Program-made: the position numbers and the translations under genes | The notes under the pieces: generated by a model | What the model was told of the DNA's origin: nothing | Databases searched by the model: none | Seen by the model: the letters and a program-made list of their open reading frames with translations, nothing else | Shown: positions 24,711 through 40,827 of the stretch, piece by piece | Numbering within the stretch: the stretch's first letter is position 1 | Layout of the letters: each line of letters opens with the position of its first letter | DNA from: Psychrobacillus vulpis | Lineage (GTDB): Bacteria > Bacillota > Bacilli > Bacillales_A > Planococcaceae | Assembly (NCBI RefSeq): GCF_006861825.1 | Contig: NZ_VDGI01000012.1 | Coordinates: forward strand, 65,191-118,032 | Direction: 5' to 3' | Length of the DNA: 52,842 nt

Positions 24711-24732
24711 ATCTCATTAAGGAGGAACTCGA

Positions 24733-26037
24733 ATGGCACTAGAACAAATCAAAATGCCTCAACTTGGAGAAAGTGTTACAGAAGGTACAATTGAAAAATG
24801 GTTAGTAAAACCAGGCGATCATGTTAATAAATACGACGCTCTAGCGGAAGTAAACACAGACAAGGTTACAGCTGAAGTGCCTTCTTCTTTTACAGGAATT
24901 ATTAAAGAACTGATTGCAAACGAAGGAGATACTCTTGCAGTTGGGGAAGTCGTTTGTACGATTGAAACAGAAGGTGGAGCTACAGAAGAAGTAGTAGAAG
25001 CCGCTCCAGAACAGCCAACAGCTGAAACTGTAAAACCGGCCGAAGTGCAAAAGCACGCTGCTCCAGTTAATCGTGAAAAAGGCGCAAAAGCTCGCTATTC
25101 ACCTGCGGTATTAAAACTTTCACAAGAACATGGGATTGATCCTACTTTAGTTAATGGTACTGGCAATGAAGGACGAATTACGCGTAAAGATTTATTAAAG
25201 ATTATTGAGAGCGGAGAAATTCCAGTAGCTTCACAAGTAGAACAAGAACCAAAAGCAGAACAAGTATCTGCAACACCACAAACACAACCGGCAGCTGCAC
25301 CAAAAACAGCACCAGTTAATGTCCCTGTGGCAGTTGGAGATATCGAAATTCCAGTTACAGGTGTACGTAAAGCAATCGCTGCGAACATGCTGCGTAGTAA
25401 ACACGAAGCACCGCATGCTTGGACAATGATTGAAGTGGATGTAACGAATTTAGTACAATATCGTGATTCATTAAAAACAGAGTTCAAATCAAAAGAAGGT
25501 TTTAACTTAACCTATTTTGCATTTTTCGTAAAAGCTGTTTCACAAGCATTAAAAGAATTCCCAATGATGAATTCTATGTGGGCTGGCGACAAAATCGTAC
25601 AGAAAAAAGACATCAATATTTCGATTGCTGTAGCAACAGAAGATGCACTTTTTGTTCCTGTTATCAAAAATGCGGATGAAAAAACGATTAAAGGCATTGC
25701 TCGTGAAGTAAATGAACTTGCTGCAAAAGTTCGCTCTGGTAAATTAAAATCAGACGAAATGCAAGGAGGAACATTCACAGTAAACAACACAGGATCATTC
25801 GGTTCTGTTCAGTCTATGGGCATTATTAACTACCCACAAGCAGCGATTCTTCAAGTAGAATCGATTGTGAAACGTCCAGTTATTATGGATGGTGGTATGA
25901 TTGCTGCTCGTGACATGGTTAACTTATGTCTTTCATTAGACCACCGTGTACTAGATGGTCTAGTTGCTGGTCGTTTCTTAGCACGAGTGAAAGAAATCCT
26001 AGAGAACATAACTAAAGACAATACTTCTATTTACTAA
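24733..26037 (+). CDS. bkdB: Branched-chain 2-oxo acid dehydrogenase E2 (lipoamide acyltransferase)
   Basis: Core acyltransferase of the BKD complex. Lipoyl domain (about 1-78) with the lipoylated lysine in EVNTDKVTAEVPS (about 43), an Ala/Glu/Pro-rich linker, a peripheral subunit-binding domain YSPAVLKLSQEHGIDPTLV...RITRKDL (about 120-156), a second linker and the catalytic domain ending with active-site DHRVLDG. 434 aa. ATG 24733 follows AAGGAGGAA. The ribosome-binding site lies just beyond the repeat tail at 24710, so translation signals are intact. A terminator follows. Confidence 0.95.
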   Translation: MALEQIKMPQLGESVTEGTIEKWLVKPGDHVNKYDALAEVNTDKVTAEVPSSFTGIIKELIANEGDTLAVGEVVCTIETEGGATEEVVEAAPEQPTAETVKPAEVQKHAAPVNREKGAKARYSPAVLKLSQEHGIDPTLVNGTGNEGRITRKDLLKIIESGEIPVASQVEQEPKAEQVSATPQTQPAAAPKTAPVNVPVAVGDIEIPVTGVRKAIAANMLRSKHEAPHAWTMIEVDVTNLVQYRDSLKTEFKSKEGFNLTYFAFFVKAVSQALKEFPMMNSMWAGDKIVQKKDINISIAVATEDALFVPVIKNADEKTIKGIAREVNELAAKVRSGKLKSDEMQGGTFTVNNTGSFGSVQSMGIINYPQAAILQVESIVKRPVIMDGGMIAARDMVNLCLSLDHRVLDGLVAGRFLARVKEILENITKDNTSIY

Positions 26038-26437: not shown

Positions 26438-26451
26438 TGAAAGCGGTTTCA
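26438..26451 (+). promoter_or_regulatory. Candidate cre site upstream of the IclR regulator
   Basis: TGAAAGCGGTTTCA matches every fixed position of the CcpA consensus TGWNANCGNTNWCA. A weaker copy (TGAAAATGGTTTCC, two mismatches) follows 36 bases downstream at 26474-26487. Both lie within 111 bases of the start codon. They could instead be IclR autoregulatory sites. Confidence 0.5.
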
Positions 26452-26548: not shown

Positions 26549-27295
26549 GTGATAGAATCTGTAAAAAAGGCATGTCAAATAATTAGTTGTTTTTCTAGTG
26601 AAGAGCCAGTGTTAGGAAATGCAGAGATTGCTAATAAGCTCGGAATGAATCCTAGTTCTACACACCACTTACTCAGTACACTTTGCAATGAGGGAGTCTT
26701 AATGAGGGATCAAAAAAGAAAATATCGTCTTGGATGGAAATTACTCGAGTGGAATAATAATGTTATGTTTCAGCAAGATATTTATGACAGGGCAATTCCA
26801 CTAGTGAAAGATCTAATTCATCGATTTATAGGTACAGCTCATATTGCTATGTTCGACAAAGGTGAAGTTGTTTTTGTATTAAAAGTATCCTCGCAAGAAG
26901 CATCTCCAATCCACACTTATATCGGTTCAAGAAAACCAGCTTATGCTACTAGTACAGGGAAAGTATTATTATCCTTTAATTCTTCTTATCTAAATGAAAC
27001 AATTAGCAGAGGATTATCAAAACAAGCACCAAATACGATTACTGATATCGATACTTTAAAAAAGGAATTAGAGATGGTACGTAAATTAGGCTATTCGATA
27101 AGTAATAATGAAAATTCGACTGCAACTTATGCAATTGCTGCACCTATTCTATCGTATTCTGGTAAAACTATTGCAGCGGTTAATTTAGTTGGACCAGCTT
27201 CCTATATGCAAGGGAGTCACCGCAACATGATAATCCAAAGCGTTATAAATACTGCTCAATCGATCTCTCAGGAATTAGGATATATTGAGGTTTAA
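26549..27295 (+). CDS. IclR family transcriptional regulator of the aromatic catabolic cluster
   Basis: Winged-helix regulator. The N-terminal IclR HTH (about 4-65: KACQIISCFSS, LGNAEIANKLGMNPSSTHHLL) precedes a GAF-like effector domain (about 80-245: GTAHIAMFDKGEVVFVLKV, YATSTGKVLLSF). 248 aa fits the family. GTG 26549 follows GGGGG. The gene stands alone upstream of the TRAP transporter and the 3-hydroxyanthranilate genes, same strand, and is the only dedicated regulator there. Control by anthranilate or a pathway intermediate is inference; activator and repressor modes both occur in the family. Confidence 0.88.
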   Translation: MIESVKKACQIISCFSSEEPVLGNAEIANKLGMNPSSTHHLLSTLCNEGVLMRDQKRKYRLGWKLLEWNNNVMFQQDIYDRAIPLVKDLIHRFIGTAHIAMFDKGEVVFVLKVSSQEASPIHTYIGSRKPAYATSTGKVLLSFNSSYLNETISRGLSKQAPNTITDIDTLKKELEMVRKLGYSISNNENSTATYAIAAPILSYSGKTIAAVNLVGPASYMQGSHRNMIIQSVINTAQSISQELGYIEV

Positions 27296-27688
27296 GTTGT
27301 GAAAGAAAAGATGTAACAATTGGCATTACTAATGAATGATGTATTCTAATAAATTATTAAAGTTTCATAGTTTGAAATTATCAGGGGGCTATTACAGTTA
27401 TGTTCTCCTATAATCGGAATAGTATATTTTCCTAAATAGGGATAATACGTATGTTTCGATAGAAGTAGGAACATATGAATTTTGAGAGTAATTTATTCAT
27501 TTTCGTAGTGATATTGGAGGTGAAGTTATAAATTAAATTAACTGAATTTTTATTATATTTAGTTAATTGTTGAGGTAAAGTGTAGTGAATTTAGGAATTC
27601 TTGCTAATGATTTTATGTCTTTATTAAAACAGGGATTGATTAAAAGTCTTTAATTAGTACTAAAAAAATTAAAAAGTGGGGTTGTTGA
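27296..27688. other. AT-rich regulatory gap iclR-dctP
   Basis: No gene. The gap holds a TTTCA-N5-TGAAA dyad at 27363-27377, an AATTAACT/AGTTAATT dyad at 27536-27568, and an orphan ribosome-binding-like GGAGGTG at about 27516 followed by no start codon. It probably contains the dctP promoter; I could not assign -35/-10 boxes with confidence. Confidence 0.4.
27363..27377. promoter_or_regulatory. TTTCA-N5-TGAAA dyad upstream of dctP
   Basis: TTTCATAGTTTGAAA has the same architecture and spacing as the dyad at 30852-30866 in front of the flavin reductase gene. Candidate operator for the local IclR protein. Confidence 0.35.
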
Positions 27689-28711
27689 ATGATGAAAAGA
27701 AATAGCTTTTATATTTTCACTTTTTTGATGGCTATAATTCTTGTTTTAGGTGCGTGCGACGAAAGTAATGCTAGTGGGGATTCTGGTGAACAAAAAGAGG
27801 CAGAAGGAAAAACTTATAATTTTAAGCTTGCTCATATAGCACCACCTGATCATATTTGGAATGAAGCAGCGAAAAAATTTGCTGAAGAATTAGAAACACG
27901 ATCAGATGGTCGGATGAAAATGGATCTATATCCAGGAGGACAATTGGGCGGAGAACCTGATATGGTGCAACAACTTGAAACGGGTTCTTTAGATTTTGGG
28001 TTTATCACAACTGCTTTTTTAACATCAAGATCAGATGCATTTAGTGCTTGGTTTGCTCCATTTTTATTTGATTCCTATGAAGCTGCTTTTGAAGCAAAAG
28101 GCTCTGATGTGTCAAAAGAAATTTTAGCTACACTCGATGATCAAGGATTAAGGGCTCTAGATATTTTCTTTTCGGGAAACCGAACAATGATGTTCCGTGA
28201 AAAAATTGAAACGCCGGAAGGTATGAAAGGTTTGACGTTACGCGTGACTCCGAGTCCAGCATTGCAAGATTGGTACCGCTATTTAGGAGCTAACCCTGAA
28301 TCTATTTCATTACCAGACGTGTACCAAGCTGCTCAGACAGGGGTAATTGACGGGATGGAAATGGATTTAGATGCAGCAGTCACATCTAATTTCAATGAAG
28401 TAACGGGGTATGCAGCAATGACCAATCATATGGTTTGGCCATCCGTTATGATAGCGAATGGGAAGAATTTTGATGCAATGCCTGAAGAAGATCAAAAAAT
28501 AATTCGTGAAGCGATGGCTGCCGCGTCTGAATATGCGACGATGAAACGTTCTTCATTAGAAGAGGAGTACGTAAAAACGTTAACTGATAGAGGAATGGTG
28601 CTTTATGATATGGACGAGTCTCTGTTTAAGTCATATATGGAAAAGTTCGATGAAGAATATAAAGCAAAAGATCCTTTAATAAAAGAGTTCATTGAAACAT
28701 TCCGTAAGTAG
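27689..28711 (+). CDS. TRAP transporter substrate-binding lipoprotein DctP
   Basis: Extracytoplasmic solute receptor of a tripartite ATP-independent periplasmic-type transporter, presumably lipid-anchored in this Gram-positive. A lipoprotein signal ends in LVLGAC (Cys about 23). The DctP/TAXI-like fold shows HIAPPDHIWNEAAKKFAEEL, YPGGQLGGEPDMVQQLETGS and LPDVYQAAQTGVIDGME. The arginine that usually binds the substrate carboxylate is plausibly in LTLRVTPSP (about 190). 340 aa. ATG 27689 after GTGGGG. First gene of dctPQM. Context points to an aromatic carboxylate such as anthranilate as cargo; this is inference. Confidence 0.9.
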   Translation: MMKRNSFYIFTFLMAIILVLGACDESNASGDSGEQKEAEGKTYNFKLAHIAPPDHIWNEAAKKFAEELETRSDGRMKMDLYPGGQLGGEPDMVQQLETGSLDFGFITTAFLTSRSDAFSAWFAPFLFDSYEAAFEAKGSDVSKEILATLDDQGLRALDIFFSGNRTMMFREKIETPEGMKGLTLRVTPSPALQDWYRYLGANPESISLPDVYQAAQTGVIDGMEMDLDAAVTSNFNEVTGYAAMTNHMVWPSVMIANGKNFDAMPEEDQKIIREAMAAASEYATMKRSSLEEEYVKTLTDRGMVLYDMDESLFKSYMEKFDEEYKAKDPLIKEFIETFRK

Positions 28712-28725
28712 GAGGAATTACGAAT

Positions 28726-29211
28726 ATGAATACATTAAGCGGATGGATTGAATCGATTGAAAAGGTGATTGCCATGATATTGATAGCGTCAATGACAATC
28801 GTAATTGCTGCTGCTGTTCTTTTTCGATACTTATTAAACGCACCTATTTTTTGGGCGAGTGAAGCAAGTATTTTCATGATGGCATGGCTGACGTTTATAG
28901 GGGGGAGCTTGGGACTTAAATATAAGTCTCAAGCATCCGTAACATTTTTGGTTGATCGTTTTTCAGACAATGGAAAACGAGTCTTTGAAATCGTATCATA
29001 CGTGATTATCTTAATCTTCATGGCTTTATTACTATATTTAAGTTACCAATGGGTATTTTCGTCGTCACACCAAAAGTCTACTTCGATGCGAATTCCGATG
29101 TGGATTCCGTACCTTTCTGTCCCAGTTGGTTTAACTTTTGCTTTTATCCACTTATTAAACAACCTAGTAAATTTATTTAAGAAAAAACAACAAGGCGGTG
29201 AACCTTTATGA
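28726..29211 (+). CDS. TRAP transporter small permease DctQ
   Basis: Four-helix small membrane subunit of the TRAP transporter. Hydrophobic segments lie at about 15-37, 50-68, 85-110 and 128-147. The family motif FRYLLNAPIFWASEASIFMM sits between helices 1 and 2, with W in FIGGSLG context. 161 aa. ATG 28726, with GTAGGAGG 14 bases after dctP, and a 4-base overlap with dctM. It should form a complex with DctM and take substrate from DctP using a sodium gradient. Confidence 0.9.
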   Translation: MNTLSGWIESIEKVIAMILIASMTIVIAAAVLFRYLLNAPIFWASEASIFMMAWLTFIGGSLGLKYKSQASVTFLVDRFSDNGKRVFEIVSYVIILIFMALLLYLSYQWVFSSSHQKSTSMRIPMWIPYLSVPVGLTFAFIHLLNNLVNLFKKKQQGGEPL

Positions 29212-30485
29212 CAATTGCGGTTATTGCTTTGTTTTTTATATTCTTATTTCTCGGTATACCGATATCGCTTGTGTTGGCAATTACGTCACTTTCGTATTTG
29301 TTTCTCGGTGATCTGACAACATTAATGAGTTCAGCGCCACAGAAAATGTTTTCTGGATTAGACAATTTTGGATTGTTGGCTGTTCCATTATTTATGTTGG
29401 CTGGAGAGTTGATGAACGGCGGGGGAATTACAAAACGACTAGTCGCCTTTGCAAAAGTCCTAATCGGTCATTATCGAGGTGGACTGGCTTATGTAACAGT
29501 TATCGCTAACATGTTCCTTGCTTCAATCTTAGGATCAGCCAATGCTCAAGCGGCGATGATGAGTAAAGTGATGGTTCCCGAGATGGAAAAGGAAGGTTAC
29601 ACACGTGAGTTCTCTTCTGCAATTACATTAGCTTCATCTATCGTAGCTCCTATCATCCCACCGAGTATGTTGTTTATCATCTACGGAACGTTAACTGGAG
29701 CATCGATTGCTGATTTATTCATGGCTGGAATTATTCCCGGTATTTTGTTAGGAATCGGTTTTATTATTGTTATTGGAATCATGAATCATAAACAACAATT
29801 CCCCAAAAGTGAGAAGGCGAATTGGAAAACAATCGTAAAAACATTCTTACAAGTTATCCCTGCCATGCTAATCCCATTCACAATCATTTTTGGTATTTTA
29901 GGCGGTGTTTTTACACCAACAGAGTCAGCATCGATTGCATGTGTAATCGCTTTCATTATTGGTTTTGTTTATCGTGAATTAAAACTGAAAAGTCTTCCAA
30001 CAATTCTTGTGAATACAGTGGTCAATACAGCAACAATTTCGTTTTTAATCGTAACAGCGAATTTATTTGGTTTTATAATTGCCTATGAAAAAATTCCACA
30101 ATTAGTTGCAGAATCGATGCTGAGCCTTTCTGATAACCCACTTGTCTTTTTATTATTAGTGAATTTATTCTTACTGTTAGTTGGAACAGTGTTAGATGGA
30201 ATTGCAGCGTTAATTATTTTGGTTCCCGTAATGATGCCACTACTAGTGACATATCAAATAGATCCGGTTCATTTCGGTATTATCATTTGTATTAACTTAA
30301 CTATTGGGTTACTAACGCCACCAGTAGGGACTGGATTGTTTATCGTTTCTTCCATTGCAAAGGTAAAATTTGAAAGATTGGTCATTGCAATTATGCCTTT
30401 CTTAGGGATGGCAATTCTCATTCTTCTTATCCTTACTTACTGGGAAGATGCGGTAATGTGGATTCCTAGTCTTTATAAAGATTGA
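29208..30485 (+). CDS. TRAP transporter large permease DctM
   Basis: Twelve-helix transport subunit of the TRAP family (elevator-type, Na+-coupled in characterised members). Signatures are FLGIPISLVLAI, PLFMLAGELMNGGGI, SANAQAAMMSKVMVPEM, IVAPIIPPSMLFIIYG and LTIGLLTPPVGTGLF. 425 aa, standard. ATG 29208 overlaps the dctQ stop (ATGA). A 44-codon ORF and a strong terminator with a 16-T tail follow, separating the transporter unit from the monooxygenase genes. Confidence 0.93.
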   Translation: MTIAVIALFFIFLFLGIPISLVLAITSLSYLFLGDLTTLMSSAPQKMFSGLDNFGLLAVPLFMLAGELMNGGGITKRLVAFAKVLIGHYRGGLAYVTVIANMFLASILGSANAQAAMMSKVMVPEMEKEGYTREFSSAITLASSIVAPIIPPSMLFIIYGTLTGASIADLFMAGIIPGILLGIGFIIVIGIMNHKQQFPKSEKANWKTIVKTFLQVIPAMLIPFTIIFGILGGVFTPTESASIACVIAFIIGFVYRELKLKSLPTILVNTVVNTATISFLIVTANLFGFIIAYEKIPQLVAESMLSLSDNPLVFLLLVNLFLLLVGTVLDGIAALIILVPVMMPLLVTYQIDPVHFGIIICINLTIGLLTPPVGTGLFIVSSIAKVKFERLVIAIMPFLGMAILILLILTYWEDAVMWIPSLYKD

Positions 30486-30525
30486 CGAAAGATTTATTTA
30501 CTGTTGAATACAAGGGAGAATCGCG

Positions 30526-30660
30526 GTGAAGAAAGACAACGATCTTCCATATATTATTGAAAGAGTGAAATATTACATCGTAGTGTCTAGGAATTCCTTG
30601 GCTATTCGTCTCTACGATTTATCGCTTTATTTAGAAAGAATAAACGAATATAAAGCTTAA
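30526..30660 (+). CDS. 44-residue small ORF at the end of the TRAP operon
   Basis: GTG 30526 has a good ribosome-binding site (AAGGGAG, 7 bases) 40 bases after dctM. The frame encodes 44 residues, MKKDNDLPYIIERVKYY at the start and RINEYKA at the end. It is rich in Tyr, Leu, Ile and charged residues with no clear membrane span, and stops before the terminator at 30699. I do not recognise it. It may be a real small protein of the transport unit or a remnant. Confidence 0.45.
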   Translation: MKKDNDLPYIIERVKYYIVVSRNSLAIRLYDLSLYLERINEYKA

Positions 30661-30698
30661 AGAGAATCTTCTAAAACAGAAGAATAATTGTAAAGTGG

Positions 30699-30772
30699 AC
30701 ATCCCATCTATTTGGTAGTAGTTTCCGACCACCATTTTATAGAGTGGGGTGTTTTATTTTTTTTTTTTTTTT
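30699..30772 (+). terminator. Strong terminator after dctPQM and small ORF
   Basis: ACATCCCA/TGGGGTGT plus TCTAT/ATAGA stem with one bulged G and a 27-base loop. It is followed by TTTTA and a run of 16 Ts (30757-30772), the longest homopolymer noticed in the window. Confidence 0.8.
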
Positions 30773-30851
30773 GATAATTAAGCTTGAATATAGAGAAGTT
30801 AGATATCTGAGCACTAGAATTTTTTTTGAAATATAAAAAATATTCTAATTA

Positions 30852-30866
30852 TTTCACTCTGTGAAA
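30852..30866. promoter_or_regulatory. TTTCA-N5-TGAAA dyad upstream of the flavin reductase gene
   Basis: TTTCACTCTGTGAAA is a perfect six-base inverted repeat (TTTCAC/GTGAAA), 76 bases before the start codon. It shares architecture with 27363-27377. Candidate regulator-binding site. Confidence 0.4.
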
Positions 30867-30941
30867 CATTCGTATAGTTAGATGAAAAACTATTCGATAT
30901 ATTATGAGTACATTGTTATCACAAAAGGAGGTATGAGAGGA

Positions 30942-31427
30942 ATGGATGTAAGAGAATTAAGAAATTGTTTTGGACAATTTGCGACTGGTGTAACAGTCAT
31001 CACTTGGAATGATGATCAAGGTGCGAGGTATGGAATAACCGTAAACTCATTTACATCAGTTTCCTTAGATCCAGCACTTGTACTAGTTTCCATTGCTAAA
31101 AGTGCTAAGGCTTGCGAAGCATTAAAAAATCGTCCATTTGTCATTAATGTGTTATCAGAATCTCAGGAACCATATGCTTGGCAATTTGCTGGGCGACCAA
31201 ATGAAAATCTTGTTGTTGAATGGGAGATAGATTCCAAGAATAGTCCACGCCTAAAAGATGCTCTTGCTACCATTGAATGTGTTCCATGGGCAGAATATGA
31301 AGGTGGAGATCATATTCTGTATGTCGGGAAAGTAGTGGATTTTTCGTATAGTAATGCAGACAGCCTCCTTTTCTTCAGAGGGAAGTTCTTGAAAACAGAA
31401 AATAACCAGATTGTCGTAAACAATTAA
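30942..31427 (+). CDS. Flavin reductase component of a two-component aromatic monooxygenase
   Basis: HpaC-like flavin reductase that supplies reduced FAD/FMN from NAD(P)H to the oxygenase encoded next. The FMN-binding split-barrel fold shows FATGVTVITW, YGITVNSFTSVSLDPALVLVSI and FVINVLSESQE. 161 aa from ATG 30942 (AAAGGAGG 10 bases upstream). In-frame starts at 30882 and 30933 are less likely. Only 19 bases separate it from the oxygenase gene. It corresponds to the reductase of the Geobacillus thermodenitrificans anthranilate 3-monooxygenase system (GeoB, from memory). Confidence 0.87.
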   Translation: MDVRELRNCFGQFATGVTVITWNDDQGARYGITVNSFTSVSLDPALVLVSIAKSAKACEALKNRPFVINVLSESQEPYAWQFAGRPNENLVVEWEIDSKNSPRLKDALATIECVPWAEYEGGDHILYVGKVVDFSYSNADSLLFFRGKFLKTENNQIVVNN

Positions 31428-31446
31428 AGTATTGGAGGATTAACTG

Positions 31447-32931
31447 ATGAGTATCAGAACAGGTGAAGATTATATTCAAGCTATTAAGTCACGACAACCG
31501 GAAGTATGGTTAGGTGGGAGAAGAGTAACAAATTTAGCAGAAGAGCCAATTTTTAAGCAGCCGATTAAGGAATTAGCTAAGTTATTTGATATGCAGCATG
31601 ATCCTAAATATCAAGATAAAATTACGCATATTTGTGAAGAAACAGGAGAACGTGTAAACAATGCTTACTTGAATCCTCGCAATGGAGAAGATTTAAAAGC
31701 ACGGAGAGAACTATTTGAAGTATGGTCACAAGCAACGTTTGGTTTAATGGGAAGAACGCCAGATTTTTTGGGGACAGTAGTAACTGCAATGGCCTCCAAC
31801 GATTGGTTCTTTAGGCAATATGGTGACCGCTGGGGAGATAATATTGTAAATTACTATAAGTATATAAGAGATAATGATCTCTTCTTAACGCATGCAATTA
31901 TTAATCCGCAGAATGATCGTAGTAAAGCCTCTAACGAACAGGTCGATACGTATACACATCTTGGAGTCGTTAAAGAGACAGAAGAAGGTCTAATTGTCCG
32001 TGGATCTAAAATGCTAGCTACACTTGCACCATTAACGGATGAAGTTATCATATATTCTTATCCGAGTTTCAAACCTGGAGATGAGAAGTATGCAATTTCA
32101 TTTGCGGTTCCGATTGACACACCTGGTTTACGTATTCTATGTAGAGAAGAAACGCAAAATGGTACAAGGTCAACATGGGATCATCCATTAGCATCAAGGT
32201 TTGAAGAAATGGATGCTGTATTGGTCTTTAATGATGTCTTAGTTCCATGGGATCGTGTGTTCATTAATCAAAATGTAGAGGCAGGTAACTTATTATATCC
32301 TAAAACAGGCATTAATCTGCAACCCTCTCATCAATCTGCCATTAGGGGCCTTGTCAAAATTTCATTTGCTACGGAAGTCGCATGTTCGATGGCAGATTCA
32401 ATTGGTGTGGACGGATTCTTAAACGTTCAAAATCAATTATCTGAACTTTTACAAGGAGTAGAAACGATTAGAGCGTTAGTTCGTATCGCTGAATATGAAT
32501 ATGTGATGACGCCTTATGGTGAAGCAATTCCAGCAATTGTACCACTTGAAACTGTCCGTGGTATATTACCTAAATTGTATCCAAGAGCAATAGAAATTTT
32601 ACAAATAATTGGTGCAGGTGGACTCTTAATGTCGCCATCAGGTGCAGACTTCGCAAATCCAGAGTTAACGGAAGATATGCATAAACATTATGGTGGCCGC
32701 GAAGGCGTAACTGCTGATGAACGAGTTCGTCTATTCAAATTAGCATGGGATTTGTGTGGGGAAGCATTCGGGCAAAGACTTGTTCAATACGAACGATACT
32801 ACTCAGGAGATCCAATTCGCAAAATGGCAATGTTCTACAACACACATAAGCGAAATAACCCAACGTATCCAATGGTAGAAGAGGCACTTAGAGTTTCTTT
32901 AGAGTTATCGAAAGAAACTGTTACGATTTAG
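31447..32931 (+). CDS. HpaB-family FADH2-dependent monooxygenase, probable anthranilate 3-hydroxylase
   Basis: Oxygenase component that uses free reduced flavin and O2 to hydroxylate an aromatic ring. Family hallmarks of 4-hydroxyphenylacetate 3-hydroxylase proteins are [20 protein letters not shown], the flavin-site [24 protein letters not shown] and [11 protein letters not shown]. 494 aa, typical. ATG 31447 after GGAGG. Immediately downstream are all enzymes that consume 3-hydroxyanthranilate, so the likely reaction is anthranilate to 3-hydroxyanthranilate (EC 1.14.14.8 type, described as GeoA in Geobacillus). Sequence alone cannot exclude 4-hydroxyphenylacetate. Confidence 0.8.
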
Positions 32932-32944
32932 TATTTCAGAAAAA

Positions 32945-32958
32945 TGACAACGCTTTCA
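32945..32958 (+). promoter_or_regulatory. Candidate cre site upstream of the dioxygenase operon
   Basis: TGACAACGCTTTCA fits all fixed positions of TGWNANCGNTNWCA. A weaker copy (TCACGGCGGTTTCA, two mismatches) follows 37 bases downstream at 32982-32995. This reproduces the strong/weak pair with 36-base spacing before the IclR gene. It suggests CcpA catabolite control of the ring-cleavage operon. Confidence 0.5.
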
Positions 32959-33141
32959 CGTAAAGGCATTATCAAGGTATTTCACGGCGGTTTCATTATA
33001 TTGATGATAGAAACATTAAGAACATAGTAAAAGGTAGGTGGGAAGACTAGATATACGTTTTTAATTATTTGATTATTTCAATAATATAAACTAAGCATTA
33101 TGTTTTTCATTTACTAATATAACAATGGAGGTATTACGAAA

Positions 33142-33684
33142 ATGACAAAATCTACGATTTCAAAATTACAAGCATTTAATCTATTGAATTGGATTGAAGA
33201 AAATAAAGATCAGCTTAAACCACCAGTTAATAATAAGGTTCTTTGGGAAGACTCTGAATTTATTTGTATGATACTAGGCGGACCGAATAGACGCCGTGAC
33301 TTCCACGTTGACCCTTCAGATGAGTTCTTCTATCAGATTAAAGGCGACTGTTACGTTGAAGTTATTAATAATGGAAAACGTGAAGTTGTAACAGTTAAAG
33401 AAGGTGAAGTATTTATGCTTCCAGCGATGGTTCCACATTCTCCACACCGTGTTGCCGATACGTATGGTCTAGTTATTGAGCGAAAACGCGACCTTGGAGA
33501 ATTAGAAGATTTCGTTTGGTTCTGTGATGAGTGTGATGAAGAAATGCACCGAAAACGTGTTCAATTGACAGACATTGAAACGCAAGTAAAAGGTGCGATT
33601 GAAGAGTTCAATAGCAGCTTAGAACTACGTACGTGTAAAAATTGCAACCACGTCATGTCCGAAGAAGTAGGGCTATGGAAATGA
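33142..33684 (+). CDS. nbaC: 3-hydroxyanthranilate 3,4-dioxygenase
   Basis: Non-haem Fe(II) extradiol-type cupin dioxygenase opening 3-hydroxyanthranilate to 2-amino-3-carboxymuconate semialdehyde. Metal ligands are expected in RRDFHVDPSDEFFYQ (His about 54, Glu about 60) and VPHSPHR (His about 98). The bacterial-type C-terminal rubredoxin-like iron site is seen as CDEC and CKNC (about 128-131 and 167-170). 180 aa. ATG 33142 after GGAGG. It opens the eight-gene catabolic run and its stop overlaps the next start (ATGA). Confidence 0.94.
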   Translation: MTKSTISKLQAFNLLNWIEENKDQLKPPVNNKVLWEDSEFICMILGGPNRRRDFHVDPSDEFFYQIKGDCYVEVINNGKREVVTVKEGEVFMLPAMVPHSPHRVADTYGLVIERKRDLGELEDFVWFCDECDEEMHRKRVQLTDIETQVKGAIEEFNSSLELRTCKNCNHVMSEEVGLWK

Positions 33685-34691
33685 GAGTAGATTTTCATAC
33701 TCATATCATACCTGAAAATATTCCAGATTTCGTTGAAAAATTTGGTGGGGAACGTTGGCCAACTTTAGAAAAAACATGTTCTTGCGGTGCTAATATCATG
33801 GTAGCCGGGAAAGTGTTCCGTGAAGTGACGGACCAAGTGTGGAGTCCTGAAAAAAGAATTCAGGATATGGATGCAGAAGGTGTCGATATTCAAGTGTTGT
33901 CACCTATTCCAGTGACATTTTCTTATTGGGCTGAACCTGAGGCTGCGGAAGAAATGTCGAAAATTCAAAATGATTTTATTGCGGATACTGTGAAACAGTA
34001 TCCGTACCGCTTTATTGGCCTCGGAACAGTACCTCTGCAAGATGTCGAGGTGTCAATCCGGGAAATGGATCGTTGTATGCATGAGCTTGGATTAAAAGGA
34101 ATTGAAATTGGAACAAATATCAATGGAAAAAACTTGGATGACCCGGCGTTTACCGCATTTTTTGAAATGGCGGAGAAATGGCAAGTGCCGTTGTTCGTCC
34201 ATCCGTGGGAAACGTTAGGTACTGAACGGATGCCACGTCATAACTTTATGTACACGGTTGGCATGCCAAGTGAAACGGCATTGGCTGCTGCTAGTTTAAT
34301 AAACGGTGGTGTCATGGAGAAATTCCCACGTCTAAAGGTTTGCTTCGCACATGGAGGAGGGTCTTTCCCATACATATTACCTCGTTTGGATCAAGGCTGG
34401 AATGTATGGCCGCATCTGCGACAAACGAGTAAACCTCCAAGTTATTATGCCAAGAACTTTTACTTTGACTCGTTGAATTATGACCCGCTAAACATTAAAT
34501 ATTTAGTAGATCGTTTTGGGTATGAAAAAATTGTAATGGGTTCAGACTACCCATTTTTATTAAGAGAGATTCCACCTGGCAAAGTGATTGATGAGACGAT
34601 TGAGCTGACGGACGAACAAAAGCAAGCTATTTTAGGTAAAAATGCGCTCGCCTTTTTAAATATTGAAATAAAGGAAGAGATTAAACGATGA
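33681..34691 (+). CDS. nbaD: 2-amino-3-carboxymuconate-6-semialdehyde decarboxylase (ACMSD)
   Basis: Zn-dependent amidohydrolase-fold decarboxylase giving 2-aminomuconate 6-semialdehyde. Metal ligands appear in VDFHTHIIP (HxH at the N-terminus), FVHPWE (about 175), FAHGGGSFP (about 225) and the catalytic Asp in MGSDYPF (about 290). 336 aa, matching characterised bacterial ACMSD. ATG 33681 is preferred (ATGA overlap with nbaC, TAGGG 8 bases upstream). ATG 33675 and an upstream in-frame start inside nbaC are less likely. The ATGA overlap with the next gene implies tight coupling. Confidence 0.93.
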   Translation: MRVDFHTHIIPENIPDFVEKFGGERWPTLEKTCSCGANIMVAGKVFREVTDQVWSPEKRIQDMDAEGVDIQVLSPIPVTFSYWAEPEAAEEMSKIQNDFIADTVKQYPYRFIGLGTVPLQDVEVSIREMDRCMHELGLKGIEIGTNINGKNLDDPAFTAFFEMAEKWQVPLFVHPWETLGTERMPRHNFMYTVGMPSETALAAASLINGGVMEKFPRLKVCFAHGGGSFPYILPRLDQGWNVWPHLRQTSKPPSYYAKNFYFDSLNYDPLNIKYLVDRFGYEKIVMGSDYPFLLREIPPGKVIDETIELTDEQKQAILGKNALAFLNIEIKEEIKR

Positions 34692-35137
34692 GTACTCCAG
34701 AAGAAAAACTTTCGGCATTAGGGCTTGAATTACCCCCTTTACGACCTGCACTAGGAGACTATGTGGGATGTGTAAGAACCGGAAATTTGTTATTCACTGC
34801 TGGCCAGGGAGTAGATGAATATCACGGAAAATTGGGTAGAGAATTAACGGTGGAAGAAGGTTATTTAGCTGCCCAACAATCGATGCTTAATCTACTAAGT
34901 GTTGTTAAAAATGAAATTGGTGAACTAAGTAAGGTAAAGCAATTCGTCAAAATACTTGGGATGGTTAATAGCACAGAAGATTTTACAGACCAACCAAAAG
35001 TGATGAACGGTGCATCTGATCTAATAGGGAAAGTTTTTGGTGATAAAGGGAAGCATGGTCGTTCAGCAGTCGGGATGGCGCAGTTGCCGAACAACACAGC
35101 CATTGAAATTGAAATGATTATTGAAATAGAGGACTAG
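34688..35137 (+). CDS. nbaF: RidA-family 2-aminomuconate deaminase
   Basis: Member of the YjgF/YER057c/UK114 family. Fold signatures are GNLLFTAGQGVDEYHGKLG, AAQQSMLNLLSVVKNEIG and the conserved Arg in GKHGRSAVGMAQLPNN (about residue 126). In nitrobenzoate and aminophenol pathways this family hydrolyses 2-aminomuconate to 4-oxalocrotonate and ammonia. The position between ACMSD and the semialdehyde dehydrogenase supports that role over general RidA imine hydrolysis. 149 aa. ATG 34688 overlaps the nbaD stop. It carries an N-terminal extension of about 20 residues relative to short RidA proteins. Confidence 0.85.
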   Translation: MSTPEEKLSALGLELPPLRPALGDYVGCVRTGNLLFTAGQGVDEYHGKLGRELTVEEGYLAAQQSMLNLLSVVKNEIGELSKVKQFVKILGMVNSTEDFTDQPKVMNGASDLIGKVFGDKGKHGRSAVGMAQLPNNTAIEIEMIIEIED

Positions 35138-35150
35138 GAGGGAGACGACT

Positions 35151-36620
35151 GTGACAAAAGGGTTAGTTGCTGACCATACTATTATTCAAGACGCAAAGCT
35201 CTTTATTAATGGGGAATATGTCAATGCTCTCTCAGGGGAAACTTTTGACTCAATTAACCCTGCGACAAATAAAAAGTTGGCCACTGTTGCAAATGGTGGG
35301 AAAGCGGATGCAAAACTTGCAATTGAAGTGGCTCAGCGGACGTTTGCAAGTGGTATTTGGAGTAAAATGCCTGTTGAAGAAAGATCTAAGATATTATGCA
35401 GGATGTCAGACTTAATCATGGAAAATGTGGATAAGCTTGCTTACGTTGAAACGTTGGATGTAGGTAAACCGATTAAGGAAAGCCGTGGATTCGATATTCC
35501 ACGAGCTGCTGCCAACTTCCGCTTCTTCGCTGAAATGGCAAAATATATGGTGCACGAGCACTACGATATGAGTAACCACATGTCTTATGTACAGTATGCA
35601 CCAGCGGGTGTTACAAGTTTGATTATCCCTTGGAATCTACCTTTTATGCAAATGACTTGGAAAGCTTCTGCTGCTTTGGCCGCAGGAAATACGGTTGTCA
35701 TTAAGCCGGCATCTTATACACCGTTAAGTGCAGTTATGCTTGGAGAAATTGCTAATGAAGCCGGGTTACCACCTGGTGTCTTAAATATATTAACGGGTCC
35801 TGGAAGTACTGTCGGGACAGTTATGGCAACACATCCATCCGTTCGAAGAATCTCATTTGTCGGAGAATCCAATACAGGAAAAACAGTGATGCGTAATGCT
35901 GCTGAAAATTTAATACCTATTTCATTAGAACTTGGAGGTAAGTCAGCCAATATTGTCTTTGAAGATGCAGATTTAGATGAAGCAGTAGCTGGCTCCATTG
36001 AGGCGATTTACCGAAACCAAGGTGAAATTTGCTTAGCCGGTTCACGAATCCTCGTTCAAGAGAGCATTTATGATCAATTCTTAGATAAGTTCGTTGCAGC
36101 TGTAAGGAAGATTAAAGTAGGGGATCCGACTGATGAATCAACGGATATGGGTGCGCTAGTTTCACAGGGACATTTGAAATCAGTCGATGACTACGTTCAA
36201 ATTGGACTCGCAGAAGGTGCAAAACTTGCTTATGGTGGAAAGGTTGTCGCAAATCTTCCAGAAGGCAATTTCTATGAGCCGACTGTACTTTATGATGTAG
36301 ATAACAAAATGCGGATTGCACAAGAAGAAATCTTTGGTCCTGTTCCCGTTATTATTCCATTTAAAACGGAAGAAGATGCGATTAATATTGCAAATGATTC
36401 TATTTACGGTTTGGCAGGTGTCGTATGGACGAATGATTTACGACGTGGACAGCGGGTAACATCGCATATCCATTCGGGCTTGCTTTGGGTGAATTGTTGG
36501 TATGTTCGCGATTTACGTACACCATTTGGTGGTGCAAAAGCGAGCGGTATTGGTCGAGAAGGCGGCCGACATAGTTTTGATTTTTATACAGAAGCGAAAA
36601 CAATTACGATAAAAAAATAA
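35151..36620 (+). CDS. nbaE: 2-aminomuconate 6-semialdehyde dehydrogenase
   Basis: NAD-dependent aldehyde dehydrogenase oxidising the unstable semialdehyde to 2-aminomuconate before it cyclises to picolinate. Motifs are PWNLPFMQMTWK, FVGESNTGK, the glutamate in SLELGGKSANIVF (about 262), the catalytic Cys in NQGEICLAGSR (about 295) and EEIFGPV. 489 aa. GTG 35151 follows AGGAGGGAG with 8 bases of spacing. Substrate assignment rests on context; the fold alone would be generic ALDH. Confidence 0.9.
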   Translation: MTKGLVADHTIIQDAKLFINGEYVNALSGETFDSINPATNKKLATVANGGKADAKLAIEVAQRTFASGIWSKMPVEERSKILCRMSDLIMENVDKLAYVETLDVGKPIKESRGFDIPRAAANFRFFAEMAKYMVHEHYDMSNHMSYVQYAPAGVTSLIIPWNLPFMQMTWKASAALAAGNTVVIKPASYTPLSAVMLGEIANEAGLPPGVLNILTGPGSTVGTVMATHPSVRRISFVGESNTGKTVMRNAAENLIPISLELGGKSANIVFEDADLDEAVAGSIEAIYRNQGEICLAGSRILVQESIYDQFLDKFVAAVRKIKVGDPTDESTDMGALVSQGHLKSVDDYVQIGLAEGAKLAYGGKVVANLPEGNFYEPTVLYDVDNKMRIAQEEIFGPVPVIIPFKTEEDAINIANDSIYGLAGVVWTNDLRRGQRVTSHIHSGLLWVNCWYVRDLRTPFGGAKASGIGREGGRHSFDFYTEAKTITIKK

Positions 36621-36630
36621 GAAAACAACG

Positions 36631-36656
36631 AAAGGTGGCATATTGCTCGCCTTTTG
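36631..36656 (+). terminator. Weak hairpin between nbaE and nbaH
   Basis: AAAGGTG pairs with CGCCTTT (one G.T) and is followed by TTTTGTTTG. It may partially terminate or process the operon mRNA, separating the upper-pathway genes from the lower meta-cleavage genes. Confidence 0.35.
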
Positions 36657-36684
36657 TTTGTTTTAGTATGGGGAGGGTTTTCAA

Positions 36685-37464
36685 GTGACAGTAAAGAATG
36701 TTGAGTTTGCAAATGAACTGTTGGAGGCTGAGGAAACGCGACAAGCAATTTCAGCTTTAACGGATCGTAATGAGCATTTAACGGTGGAAGATGCGTATAA
36801 CATTCAATTGGAAACAGTCAATTTAAAGCTTGCACAAGGAAAAAAAGTAATCGGGAAAAAAGTAGGATTAACAAGTGTTGCAATGCAAAAAATGCTAAAT
36901 GTAAATGAACCAGATTACGGCCATTTATTAGATGATATGCGTGTGGAGAGTGGTGCTTTAGTCAAAATCGATTCGATGATTTCTCCAAAGATTGAGGCTG
37001 AAATCGGTTTTGTACTTGATGAGGATTTAGTAGGACCGAATGTTACGTATCTTGACGTTATGATGGCTACTAAATATGTTGTGCCAACACTTGAAATCAT
37101 TGATAGTCGTGTGAAAGATTGGAAAATAAAGTTAATAGATACAGTTGCTGATAATGGTTCTTCTGCAAAAGTAGTAGTGGGCGAGAAACTAACAGCACTA
37201 GACGGAATAGATTTACGTACAAATAGTATGGTGCTATTTAAGAACGATGAACTCCTTGCAACAGGTGCAGGTGCAGCCGCACTTGGTCATCCAGCTCATG
37301 CTATTGCTTGGCTAGCAAATAAATTACATGAATTCGGAATTACATTGAAAAAAGGCGAATTAATTTTACCAGGTGCGTTATCCGGCGCGGTTTCAGTTTC
37401 TGCTGGAGACACAATTGAAGCGAAATTTGGTGTACTTGGATCGGTAACTGTTCATTTCGAATAA
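36685..37464 (+). CDS. nbaH: 2-hydroxypenta-2,4-dienoate (2-oxopent-4-enoate) hydratase
   Basis: MhpD-like member of the fumarylacetoacetase-fold family. It hydrates 2-oxopent-4-enoate to 4-hydroxy-2-oxovalerate. Visible are GKKVIGKKVGLTS, acidic metal site KIEAEIGFVLDED (about 110), LEIIDSRVKDWK and VADNGSSAKVVVG. 259 aa. GTG 36685 with GGGGAGGG 7 bases upstream. It is paralogous to the gene at 39458. I assign hydratase here and decarboxylase there from the order E-H-J-I-G recalled for Pseudomonas nba genes; the two assignments could be exchanged. Confidence 0.8.
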   Translation: MTVKNVEFANELLEAEETRQAISALTDRNEHLTVEDAYNIQLETVNLKLAQGKKVIGKKVGLTSVAMQKMLNVNEPDYGHLLDDMRVESGALVKIDSMISPKIEAEIGFVLDEDLVGPNVTYLDVMMATKYVVPTLEIIDSRVKDWKIKLIDTVADNGSSAKVVVGEKLTALDGIDLRTNSMVLFKNDELLATGAGAAALGHPAHAIAWLANKLHEFGITLKKGELILPGALSGAVSVSAGDTIEAKFGVLGSVTVHFE

Positions 37465-37507
37465 TATTTCTACACATTAATCCGAAGCATGAGGAAGGGG
37501 AATGACT

Positions 37508-38401
37508 GTGGGGAAGATTAAAGCGGCAATTATCGGCTCCGGCAATATTGGAACTGATTTAATGTATAAACTGGAAAGAAGTGACGTTATTGAACTAACA
37601 GCAATGATTGGTATTGATGCAGATTCGGATGGGCTAAAACGTGCAAAGCAAAAAGGCTACACGGTCTTTACGAATGGAATTGAAGGGATCATTGAAAATC
37701 CACATATCGCAGAAATTGTTTTTGATGCCACTTCCGCAAAAGCGCATGTGCGGCATGCCAAAGTATTAAAAGAATTAGGAATACTGACAATCGATTTAAC
37801 ACCTGCGGCAAGAGGGCCTTTCTTTTGTCCAGCAGTCAGTTCGAATCAAAGCTCTGGAGAGTTGGATAACGTCAATATGATTACTTGTGGAGGACAAGCA
37901 ACAATACCAATTGTACACGCTGTGAATCAAGTAGCAGATGTTAGTTACGGAGAAATTGTTGCGACGATTTCCAGCTTAAGTGCTGGACCGGGAACTCGAG
38001 CTAATATTGATGAATTCACGATTACAACACGCCGTGGAATTGAAGAAGTCGGCGGTGCGGACCGAGGAAAAGCGTTAATTATTTTAAATCCGGCAGATCC
38101 ACCTATATTAATGCGAGACACGGTTTATTGTGAAGTGAAAAATATGGATGAATCGGCAATTAGAAAATCCATAACGGAAATGGTTGAAAAAGTAAAAGAA
38201 TATGTTCCTGGGTATCGGTTAAGACAGGACCCGATGTTTGACGGGAATCGTGTGACAGTTTTTATTGAAGTGGAAGGAGCAGGCGATTATTTTCCGGCAT
38301 ATGCAGGAAATTTAGATATTATGACAGCGGCTGCTATGCGCGTAGGTGAAGATTTTGCTCGATCAATGCTGAAAGAAAAAGCGGCAGAATCATTAATATA
38401 A
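37508..38401 (+). CDS. nbaJ: Acetaldehyde dehydrogenase (acylating)
   Basis: Converts acetaldehyde to acetyl-CoA with NAD+ and CoA, in a channelled complex with the aldolase encoded next. NAD-binding [15 protein letters not shown] at the N-terminus, [23 protein letters not shown], catalytic Cys in [12 protein letters not shown] (about 130) and [12 protein letters not shown] near the end. About 297 aa. I favour GTG 37508 (GGAAGGGG 7 bases upstream). ATG 37502 two codons earlier is also possible but only 1 base from that site. Confidence 0.93.
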
Positions 38402-38425
38402 AACGACTGGAAAGGAGGTTCCATA

Positions 38426-39454
38426 ATGAATAAACGTATGAATAAACCAATCCAACTAACGGAAGTTTGCTTACGTGATGGTAGTCATGTCGTAGCACAT
38501 CAATTTACTGAACAACAGGTACGTAATGTTGCACGAGGGTTAGATGAAGCAGGTATGCATTATATTGAAGTAAGTCATGGGGACGGTCTAGGTGGTTCCA
38601 CTTTACAGTATGGAAAATCATTAGTTGATGAAATGACATTAATTGAAGCAGCTGTTGATGAATGTCAAAACGCAAAAGTAGCTGTTTTGCTAATACCGGG
38701 AATCGGAACTGTAAATGAATTAAAGCAGGCAAGTGAACTAGGTGCTAGGCTTGTAAGAGTTGCTACGCATGCGACGGAGGCAGATGTTTCCGCCCAGCAT
38801 ATCAGTAAAGCTCGCGAACTTGGTATGGAGTCATTAGGATTTTTAATGATGGCTCATTCAGTTTCGGTTGAGAAGTTGGTCGAGCAAGCGAAATTAATGG
38901 AGAGCTATGGTGCAGAAGCTGTCTATGTTACTGATTCAGCAGGAGCTTTATTGCCAATCGAGGTGCGTGAGCGGATTAAAGCGTTACGCAATTCATTGGA
39001 TATTGAAGTCGGCTTTCATGCTCACAACAATTTATCAGTTGCGGTAGCGAATACGATTGCTGCCATCGAAGAAGGAGCTACACGCATTGATGGCAGTGTC
39101 CGTTGTTTAGGAGCAGGTGCCGGGAATACACAAACAGAAGTGTTACTCGCTGTGATGGAGCGGATGGGGATAGATGTCGGCATCGATTTATACAAAATGA
39201 TGGATGTAGCAGAAGAGATAGTCGGTCCTATTATTCCTGGCTCTCAAGAAATTCGAAAGGGGAGTCTCGTTCTAGGTTATGCAGGTGTCTATTCCAGCTT
39301 TTTGCTCCATGCCGAACGTGCAGGAAAAAGATTTGGAATCGACCCACGAGATATATTAGTTGAACTAGGAAAAATGAAGGTTGTTGGCGGGCAGGAAGAT
39401 ATGATTCTGGACGTAGCGGCCGAATTGGCGAAAAATAATAAAGTGAGGGTATAA
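38426..39454 (+). CDS. nbaI: 4-hydroxy-2-oxovalerate aldolase
   Basis: HMGL-like, Mn-dependent aldolase cleaving 4-hydroxy-2-oxovalerate to pyruvate and acetaldehyde. The N-terminal LTEVCLRDGSHVVAHQF carries the catalytic Arg-Asp and His. Metal ligands lie in GFHAHNNLSVAVANT (HxH) and the DmpG-type C-terminal communication domain is present. 342 aa. ATG 38426 after AAAGGAGG. It sits 24 bases after the dehydrogenase partner. Confidence 0.94.
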   Translation: MNKRMNKPIQLTEVCLRDGSHVVAHQFTEQQVRNVARGLDEAGMHYIEVSHGDGLGGSTLQYGKSLVDEMTLIEAAVDECQNAKVAVLLIPGIGTVNELKQASELGARLVRVATHATEADVSAQHISKARELGMESLGFLMMAHSVSVEKLVEQAKLMESYGAEAVYVTDSAGALLPIEVRERIKALRNSLDIEVGFHAHNNLSVAVANTIAAIEEGATRIDGSVRCLGAGAGNTQTEVLLAVMERMGIDVGIDLYKMMDVAEEIVGPIIPGSQEIRKGSLVLGYAGVYSSFLLHAERAGKRFGIDPRDILVELGKMKVVGGQEDMILDVAAELAKNNKVRV

Positions 39455-39457
39455 ATA

Positions 39458-40249
39458 ATGACTCTACTAACAAGTAAAAATAAAGATATTATTGAATACT
39501 TATATACGGCAGAGCGTGATGCTCGTGAAGTTATGAAAGTGACGGACGAATATCCAGAATTGACAATAAAGGAAGCTTATGAAATACAAAATGGCTTACT
39601 GACAAGAAAACTAACGGAAAATGGTACGAAAACAATCGGAGTGAAGTTAGGATTAACAAGTAAAGCGAAGCAAGAAATGATGGGCGTTAATGAAGCAATT
39701 TACGGTTATTTGCATAATGATATGCTCGCATATGAATGGGAAGCCATCCAATTTTCCGAACTTATTCACCCGAAAGTAGAGCCGGAAATTGCCTTTCTAT
39801 TATCGGAAGACTTACAAGGTGAAAATATCACAGCAGAGGACGTTTTAAAAGCTACGAAATATGTGGCACCTGCTCTTGAAGTAATTGATAGCCGTTATAA
39901 AGATTTTCGGTTCACTTTAGTGGATGTAGTTGCTGACAATTGTTCTTCTGCAAAATTTGTAGTGGGAAGTAAATGGGTTTCACCGAGTGCTATTGATGTA
40001 GGTAACATTGGCATGGTTATGTCCAAAAATGGTAACGTTGAACAAACAGGTTCAAGTGCGGCAGTATTAGGGCATCCAGCGGAAGCGATTGCATGGGCTG
40101 TTAACGAACTAGGTGCTCTAGGAAAAGGGCTTAAAAAAGGAGATATAGTGCTAAGTGGGGCTATGTCCGAAGCAATCGCATTTCAAGCAGGGGATTCTGT
40201 GATAGCAGAATTCGATGGCTTAGGTTCTGTAACACTGTATTGTAAATAA
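39458..40249 (+). CDS. nbaG: 4-oxalocrotonate (2-oxo-3-hexenedioate) decarboxylase
   Basis: Fumarylacetoacetase-fold, Mg-dependent decarboxylase turning 4-oxalocrotonate into 2-oxopent-4-enoate. Family residues are seen in KTIGVKLGLTSKAKQEMMGV, KVEPEIAFLLSEDLQG (acidic metal ligands), LEVIDSRYKDFRF and VADNCSSAKFVVG. 263 aa. It begins 3 bases after the aldolase stop and closes the operon before a terminator. Clear paralogue of the 36685 gene; decarboxylase versus hydratase is set by gene order, so specificity is moderately certain. Confidence 0.82.
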   Translation: MTLLTSKNKDIIEYLYTAERDAREVMKVTDEYPELTIKEAYEIQNGLLTRKLTENGTKTIGVKLGLTSKAKQEMMGVNEAIYGYLHNDMLAYEWEAIQFSELIHPKVEPEIAFLLSEDLQGENITAEDVLKATKYVAPALEVIDSRYKDFRFTLVDVVADNCSSAKFVVGSKWVSPSAIDVGNIGMVMSKNGNVEQTGSSAAVLGHPAEAIAWAVNELGALGKGLKKGDIVLSGAMSEAIAFQAGDSVIAEFDGLGSVTLYCK

Positions 40250-40510: not shown

Positions 40511-40827
40511 CTAAGATCTGTCCCCTTTTCATAACGATTTGATTTTGGGCAGCAAGAGAAGGGAGATGTCAAATAGTAAGGGAGAGTTCTTATTCTGAAA
40601 GATTAAATTTAAATTATGTAGCACATCACTTTTTTGAATTTATATTCAGTTACATGGTAATTAATGAATTATTATTCTATAGTCTCTTGAAATAAGTTTT
40701 CTTATGACATTTATAGAACAACTTTAACATTACATAGTAAGAAGGAACTTTATGAACGTTTTATCGGTTAAGTGCAAAATATGATGTGCAATAAAAATAG
40801 TTATTGAACTTTTCGGAGGAGATATTA

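Follow-up and report, generated by a model that had tools for sequence, protein, structure and literature searches.

The catabolism of anthranilate through flavin-dependent hydroxylation is a route already known from Geobacillus. In the parts of a review that deal with G. thermodenitrificans NG80-2 (Liu et al. 2010, via PMC4539516), a FAD-dependent enzyme hydroxylates anthranilate to 3-hydroxyanthranilate (3-HAA), which then undergoes meta-cleavage, and genes for flavin reductase and riboflavin kinase/FMN adenylyltransferase belong to the cluster (PMC4539516). Import of aromatic acids by tripartite ATP-independent periplasmic (TRAP) transporters is described for Gram-negative bacteria (PMC3610893, PMC6362003, PMC5812351), including TarPQM of Rhodopseudomonas palustris, located at an aromatic pathway locus (PMC3610893). 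Here we analysed a window of 52,842 nucleotides (the whole stretch of DNA under study; contig NZ_VDGI01000012.1, hereafter C4, positions 65191-118032) from the 4.02 Mb genome of Psychrobacillus vulpis. Within it, 14 open reading frames at 26549-40249, all on the forward strand according to the list of open reading frames and the family scans, encode an IclR regulator, a DctPQM importer, a two-component flavin hydroxylase and eight enzymes from 3-HAA to pyruvate and acetyl-CoA; this inventory, given in an earlier note on this DNA, is borne out by the open reading frames and family matches. We consider it likely that they form an anthranilate catabolic island of a spore former, fed by TRAP import and a separate kynurenine operon and controlled by CcpA and IclR.

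The island resembles the NG80-2 system in pairing an anthranilate 3-hydroxylase-type enzyme and a flavin reductase with 3-HAA meta-cleavage. Unlike NG80-2 as described, it includes a TRAP importer and an IclR regulator, and the window lacks a FAD synthetase. Its ring-cleavage genes run E-H-J-I-G, which we take to be also the order of the Pseudomonas nba genes for 2-nitrobenzoate, and the functions of nbaC, D, F, E, H, J, I and G are all proposed in the island; the nba route presumably enters from nitrobenzoate, whereas the island would be entered by anthranilate hydroxylation. As in the kynurenine pathway with 3-HAA meta-cleavage, tryptophan 2,3-dioxygenase (TDO), arylformamidase and kynureninase are encoded on the island's contig; unlike that pathway, no kynurenine 3-monooxygenase (KMO) was recognised and hydroxylation would come after kynureninase. 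Like TarPQM, the importer has a DctP-type receptor with a conserved arginine at an aromatic pathway locus, and its pocket positions are like those of SPO1773; unlike TarPQM and SPO1773, it belongs to a Gram-positive host, its receptor is a lipoprotein and its pathway is that of anthranilate.

In the proposed mechanism, anthranilate would enter from outside through DctPQM, and could also be formed from tryptophan by the products of an operon (kynU-TDO-transporter-kynB) that is present on the contig. The reductase and the HpaB-like oxygenase would hydroxylate it at C3, eight enzymes of recognised families would open the ring and degrade it to pyruvate and acetyl-CoA, and the island would be induced through IclR and repressed by CcpA at cre boxes.

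The hydroxylase consists of a flavin reductase (30882..31427; PF01613, Flavin_Reduct) encoded directly upstream of the HpaB-like oxygenase (31447..32931; PF11794 and PF03241, HpaB_N and HpaB), a probable anthranilate 3-monooxygenase. The oxygenase shares 72% identity with P0052 of G. thermodenitrificans, which we infer to be the assayed NG80-2 hydroxylase, and in a tree of 51 chosen rows the two fall in one clade with support of 100/100. This orthology and the reductase in the same cluster agree with the Geobacillus-type flavin hydroxylation route that the earlier note had claimed; a tblastn search of the window with a relative's FAD synthetase found nothing at 1e-5. The nearest named oxygenase loci, of which the top seven are at 84-94%, belong to Sporosarcina and Paenisporosarcina. 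In a sample of 398 Bacilli genomes, with at most three oxygenase candidates scored per genome, an orthologue was found in 30 (63-100% identity; other listed matches at most 45%), all of which also encode the 3-HAA 3,4-dioxygenase (HAO), while two further genomes have HAO without the oxygenase; weak PF06052 matches (eight genomes, <30 bits) were not scored as HAO. Among 19 genomes of the genus the orthologue was present at threshold only in the studied genome, the other listed matches being 36-40% paralogues; within this sample the island is accessory.

The enzymes of 3-HAA meta-cleavage follow. HAO (NbaC; 33142..33684) scored above the cut-offs of two equivalogs, NF009763 and TIGR03037, and the next gene (33675..34691; PF04909) encodes a 2-amino-3-carboxymuconate-6-semialdehyde decarboxylase (NbaD/ACMSD), whose best solved relatives are ACMSDs (E 7e-97) and which had no NCBIfam match at 0.001. 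Downstream are a Rid-family protein (34688..35137; PF14588), probably the 2-aminomuconate deaminase NbaF, with Rid proteins or uncharacterised ones as its solved relatives, and an aldehyde dehydrogenase (35151..36620), probably the 2-aminomuconate-6-semialdehyde dehydrogenase NbaE, for which HpaE was the best NCBIfam model, below its cut-off, and whose closest solved relatives, 4i1w included, comprise a 2-aminomuconate-6-semialdehyde dehydrogenase. The gene set of the lower pathway, which ends in pyruvate and acetyl-CoA, is completed by a DmpE-type 2-oxopent-4-enoate hydratase (NbaH; 36685..37464; best TIGR03220, below cut-off), an acylating acetaldehyde dehydrogenase (NbaJ; 37502..38401; equivalog TIGR03215, above cut-off), a 4-hydroxy-2-oxovalerate aldolase (NbaI; 38426..39454; equivalog TIGR03217, above cut-off) and a DmpH-type 4-oxalocrotonate (2-oxo-3-hexenedioate) decarboxylase (NbaG; 39458..40249; best TIGR03218, below cut-off). 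The roles of the hydratase, this decarboxylase and the semialdehyde dehydrogenase were assigned by best model and position, that of the deaminase by family and position. Family scans and solved-structure relatives thus uphold the complete lower pathway proposed before.

The genes for the three components of the importer lie together: dctP for the solute-binding protein, the proposed anthranilate receptor (27689..28711; PF03480, 233 bits; TIGR00787, above cut-off), dctQ for the small permease (28726..29211; PF04290) and dctM for the large permease (29208..30485; PF06808; TIGR00786, above cut-off). DctP is a lipoprotein by its Cys23, which is invariant in 42 database sequences. Its best solved relative by sequence is SPO1773 of Ruegeria (4paf/4pai/4pbh; E 2e-41; 30% identity), the ligands of which we take to be dihydroxybenzoate, 3-hydroxybenzoate and benzoate. 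In alignments, six pocket positions read R, R, P, L, M, W in the window, R, R, P, L, M, F in SPO1773 and R, R, N, F, N, N in sialic acid receptors. These residues (R165, R185, P188, L208, M225 and W250) are invariant in the 42 database sequences and in a 25-member DctP clade, which was recovered with support of 95/96 in a tree of 30 receptors that had five outgroups only and for which the tool warned of long branches; stretches that were shorter than 180 residues, contained stops or were identical had been excluded from this tree, frames had been extended upstream to the previous stop, and the second TRAP sets of two related loci (L007 and L009, 22% identical) stood outside it. R185, shared with the sialic acid receptors, corresponds to the carboxylate-binding Arg147 of SiaP, which we take to be the arginine of the LRV motif. 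The role of a conserved arginine in binding the carboxylate is described for TRAP receptors in PMC3610893. An AlphaFold2 model of DctP (pLDDT 86.7) has the fold of a TRAP receptor. Given the relationship to SPO1773 and the pocket positions, the receptor looks suited to an aromatic acid, in line with the earlier prediction of a receptor for an aromatic amino acid-like carboxylate.

Receptors of the island clade (at least 49% identity) were found in 14 of the 30 genomes with the oxygenase, whereas 50 other genomes had none (best 40%; Fisher p 1e-7, relatedness ignored); these 50 were hand-picked, mostly from the same families, non-random, and did not include G052 and G082. For eleven of the 14 receptors, counting that of the window, the gene falls within the sequence fetched on either side of the enzyme genes; five of them lie upstream of these genes and six downstream, and six GTDB families are represented. 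Of 16 named Bacillota loci, 13 contain dctP or dctM. The coupling of this route to a TRAP transporter does appear little described, as the earlier note had it, but it is not specific to this strain, recurring in those six families on either side of the enzymes.

It is possible, though we hold it to be doubtful, that the enzymes act as described while the importer carries another substrate (kynurenine, 3-HAA, isatinate, a hydroxybenzoate or a non-aromatic acid), anthranilate being made inside the cell or diffusing in. Some of the oxygenase-bearing genomes that lack a receptor of the clade have clusters adjoining an MFS or SulP transporter instead, a relative of isatin hydrolase is encoded between the TRAP and hydroxylase genes in two related loci (L004 and L015), and the DctP model fits receptors for sugar acids and for other ligands just as well. 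On the other side, the four positions at which SiaP has N, F, N, N are P, L, M, W in the window and P, L, M, F in SPO1773, and the three nearest other cousins examined are encoded near gentisate-, 3-hydroxybenzoate- or catechol-type genes.

The anthranilate island would also receive substrate from tryptophan. On the minus strand of C4, 38.6 kb downstream, an operon encodes kynureninase (kynU), TDO, a sodium-dependent transporter and arylformamidase (kynB), the three enzymes all scoring above equivalog cut-offs. The earlier remark that the island is without kynurenine genes holds for the window, where searches with kynU, TDO and kynB found nothing at 1e-5, but not for the genome, and the implied independence from the kynurenine route is not supported, with these genes on the same contig and TDO present in 26 of the 30 oxygenase-bearing genomes. 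Among the other genomes TDO was found in 132 of 368 (Fisher p 5e-8, relatedness ignored). Of the 30, 27 gave a C-terminal kynureninase match, which was weak in one case; over the full sample the figure was 189 of 398. We compared gene order in 47 related loci, 46 of them distinct since L149 repeats L008, and in 14 of the 47 the cluster adjoins kynU, TDO or kynB (L006-L009, L011, L013-L016, L134, L144, L148, L149 and L154), L134 and L154 representing the two genomes without the oxygenase.

No KMO was recognised in the genome by one Pfam search combined with best-name assignment, made without a KMO positive control. The search gave seven PF01494 (FAD_binding_3) matches, three of them long, with MhpA-like, PRK06185-like and PRK06753-like best models. 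Because no KMO was recognised, the carbon of tryptophan would be hydroxylated after kynureninase, on anthranilate, and the path probably runs from tryptophan through formylkynurenine, kynurenine and anthranilate to 3-HAA by way of the island oxygenase. We give an even chance to a broader picture, a "late-hydroxylation" tryptophan path and anthranilate hub of Bacilli in which the HpaB subclade with swapped contacts replaces KMO while the three modules that feed the hub, namely the kyn operon, isatin hydrolase genes and a TRAP importer dedicated to anthranilate, come and go from genome to genome.

That the island serves tryptophan breakdown only, the importer merely recovering anthranilate leaked from the cell, would fit the kyn operon on the same contig and the kyn genes adjoining the cluster in several relatives. 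We judge it improbable: two of the four oxygenase-bearing genomes without TDO (G205 and G215, the latter with a kynureninase-type match) have the TRAP genes beside the enzymes, and the importer thus persists without a recognised TDO.

The substrate of the oxygenase was assessed further at the residues that bind 4-hydroxyphenylacetate (4-HPA) in a related enzyme. In HpaB of Thermus (TtHpaB), according to PMC10537072, Arg100, Tyr104 and His142 hold the phenol hydroxyl of 4-HPA and Ser197-Thr198 its carboxylate. At these five contacts (R100, Y104, H142, S197, T198) the island oxygenase has R, F, H, Y and P, three of the five being replaced. Among 175 sequences of at least 60% identity, from which tblastn stretches that were shorter than 380 residues, contained stops or were identical had been excluded, Arg is kept in 175 and His in 174, Tyr104 is replaced by Phe in 174, Ser197 by Phe or Tyr in 175 and Thr198 by Pro in 174, with the full swapped pattern in 173, L017 and P0025 being the exceptions. 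The genome has its own HpaB paralogue on contig C8, which retains all five contacts, scores 723 bits with HpaB-1, above the cut-off, and has HpaD, HpaE and both halves of HpaG as neighbours, all above cut-off; a third oxygenase paralogue is encoded on contig C19. With this separate cluster, and with the island enzyme short of three contacts, 4-HPA would be served by the C8 cluster, and a 4-HPA pathway was rejected as the function of the island. An anthranilate-type oxygenase rather than a 4-HPA hydroxylase, as first proposed, is thus the assignment favoured by identity, clade, contact residues and the C8 cluster. That the enzyme hydroxylates 4-HPA or another phenol is very improbable, even though HpaB-1 is its best NCBIfam model (449.2 bits, below the equivalog cut-off of 480.2) and many public names read 4-hydroxyphenylacetate 3-hydroxylase, given the replaced contacts, an island without homoprotocatechuate enzymes in a genome whose C8 cluster has HpaB, HpaD, HpaE and HpaG above cut-offs, and the co-occurrence of HAO in 30 of 30 genomes.

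Several observations weigh against the anthranilate island as set out above. In the Geobacillus cluster as described, and in many relatives, hpaB is accompanied by a FAD synthetase gene, which the window lacks; the enzyme is probably not essential, since it is missing from several relatives too. As 16 of the 30 oxygenase-bearing genomes have no DctP of the island clade, the importer is optional. Fold comparison of the DctP model does not favour SPO1773 over the rest: the scores of several TRAP receptors lie within 1 Z unit of one another, and Foldseek places sialic acid receptors above SPO1773; with its top rows tied, fold comparison is unable to choose the ligand. Four of the 30 genomes are without TDO, so the link to tryptophan is not obligatory, and the absence of KMO depends on the single Pfam search and name assignment mentioned above. 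Finally, the type of regulator differs between clusters, IclR in some and twin Crp-like regulators in others, and control is therefore not conserved.

In the island the regulator is an IclR-family protein (26549..27295; PF01614 and PF09339, IclR_C and HTH_IclR) with PcaR/PcaU as best subfamily, below cut-off. The cre consensus of Bacillus subtilis is given as TGWAANCGNTNWCA in PMC5263246. Within the 52.8-kb window this pattern occurs in three places, all in the island, as 5 strand-matches against 0.10 expected from shuffles: a cre-like box with the sequence TGAAAGCGGTTTCA (26438..26451), an exact match 97 bp upstream of iclR, one inside dctM (29942..29955) and one between hpaB and HAO (32945..32958, minus strand). 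Eight other stretches of the genome (124 kb) contained one box. Among the 47 related loci, 11 of 20 box places (10 of 19 without the duplicate locus) precede a homologue of iclR, HAO or hpaB by 24-80 bp, the distance to the iclR homologue being 63-80 bp in L005-L010. The pattern suggests carbon catabolite repression of the island by CcpA. No convincing common IclR operator was found among the palindromes and shared 10-mers of the intergenic stretches, where nothing was conspicuous except the cre-like boxes.

The genes from HAO through the last decarboxylase are separated by only -10 to 64 bp, which suggests a single transcript, while wider gaps between iclR and dctP (393 bp), dctM and the reductase gene (396 bp) and hpaB and HAO (210 bp) would allow several transcription units. 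The flavin reductase probably starts at 30942, with AAAGGAGG upstream in a check for ribosome-binding sites, and not at 30882, and ACMSD probably starts at 33675, not at a TTG at 33642.

Isatin hydrolase modules in related loci point to two candidate routes, both possible, from isatinate to anthranilate. In L004 and L015 (L004:4974-9209; L015:4468-8840), a relative of isatin hydrolase (E 2e-73 in L004; that of L015 is in the same protein cluster), a thiamine-diphosphate enzyme of PRK08327 type, with distant similarity to acetolactate synthase and benzoylformate decarboxylase, and an aldehyde dehydrogenase are encoded between dctM and the hydroxylase. In L180 (1949-6173), near the hydroxylase, another relative (E 5e-79) occurs with subunits of a 2-oxoacid oxidoreductase, best named phenylglyoxylate dehydrogenase, below those cut-offs. 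No isatin hydrolase was found in the studied genome, in a search made without a positive control.

Other features of the related loci may be added. Of the cousins of the island DctP (39-42%), one is encoded near a gentisate 1,2-dioxygenase-like gene (L177), one near a catechol 2,3-dioxygenase-like gene (L178) and one near a 3-hydroxybenzoate 6-monooxygenase-like gene (L179), each below curated cut-offs, a hint of a wider aromatic-acid TRAP family in Bacilli. The three clade TRAPs outside the enzyme stretches (L174, L175 and L176) are unlinked DctPQM sets beside an FMN reductase 72% like that of other clusters and twin Crp-like regulators, of which those of L174 were scanned; a similar regulator pair flanks hpaB elsewhere. 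In L007 (14843-17981) and L009 (13947-17109), hpaB and HAO are separated by the insertion of a second, distant TRAP set, which follows two genes, one esterase-like and one with an MpsC domain. The Virgibacillus oxygenase orthologue of L017 (10001-11464; 66%) has Ser in place of the clade's Phe and is accompanied by a reductase, no other island gene being labelled within the fetched flanks. Burkholderiales HpaB proteins (L020-L022:10001-11452; 46-47%) show the same Phe and Pro swap; L020 also has a gene for an MhpA-like hydroxylase close by, and the 10-kb flanks fetched for the three loci contained no labelled HAO.

Elsewhere in the window, a DUF3100 membrane protein and a second small membrane-like open reading frame (40804-42062) lie just downstream; they were rejected as island members, since none of the 47 loci compared had a labelled homologue. 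At the window start (52-1567), a Group II intron RNA (RF01998) overlaps the beginning of an open reading frame (110-1567) that, named from its sequence, resembles a group II reverse transcriptase/maturase. At 24373-24740, a Bacillaceae-1 RNA (RF01690), with short repeats after it that show up in repetitive antisense open reading frames, lies between two genes resembling branched-chain 2-oxoacid dehydrogenase subunits.

The tie to a TRAP importer, the clade-wide residue swap and the split tryptophan path with late hydroxylation appear little described: in the open-licence literature, which was the scope of the search, no paper on this combination was among the matches listed, and PMC12772314 only names the gene in a Bacillus cereus genome. 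We know of no aromatic-acid TRAP defined so far in a Gram-positive bacterium, and a dedicated anthranilate TRAP would be the first. If the proposed reading is true, it would assign a substrate class to a clade of TRAP receptors in Gram-positive bacteria and provide a residue rule separating anthranilate hydroxylases from the many relatives named 4-hydroxyphenylacetate hydroxylase, and it would explain the complete use of tryptophan by Bacilli that have kynureninase but no recognised KMO.

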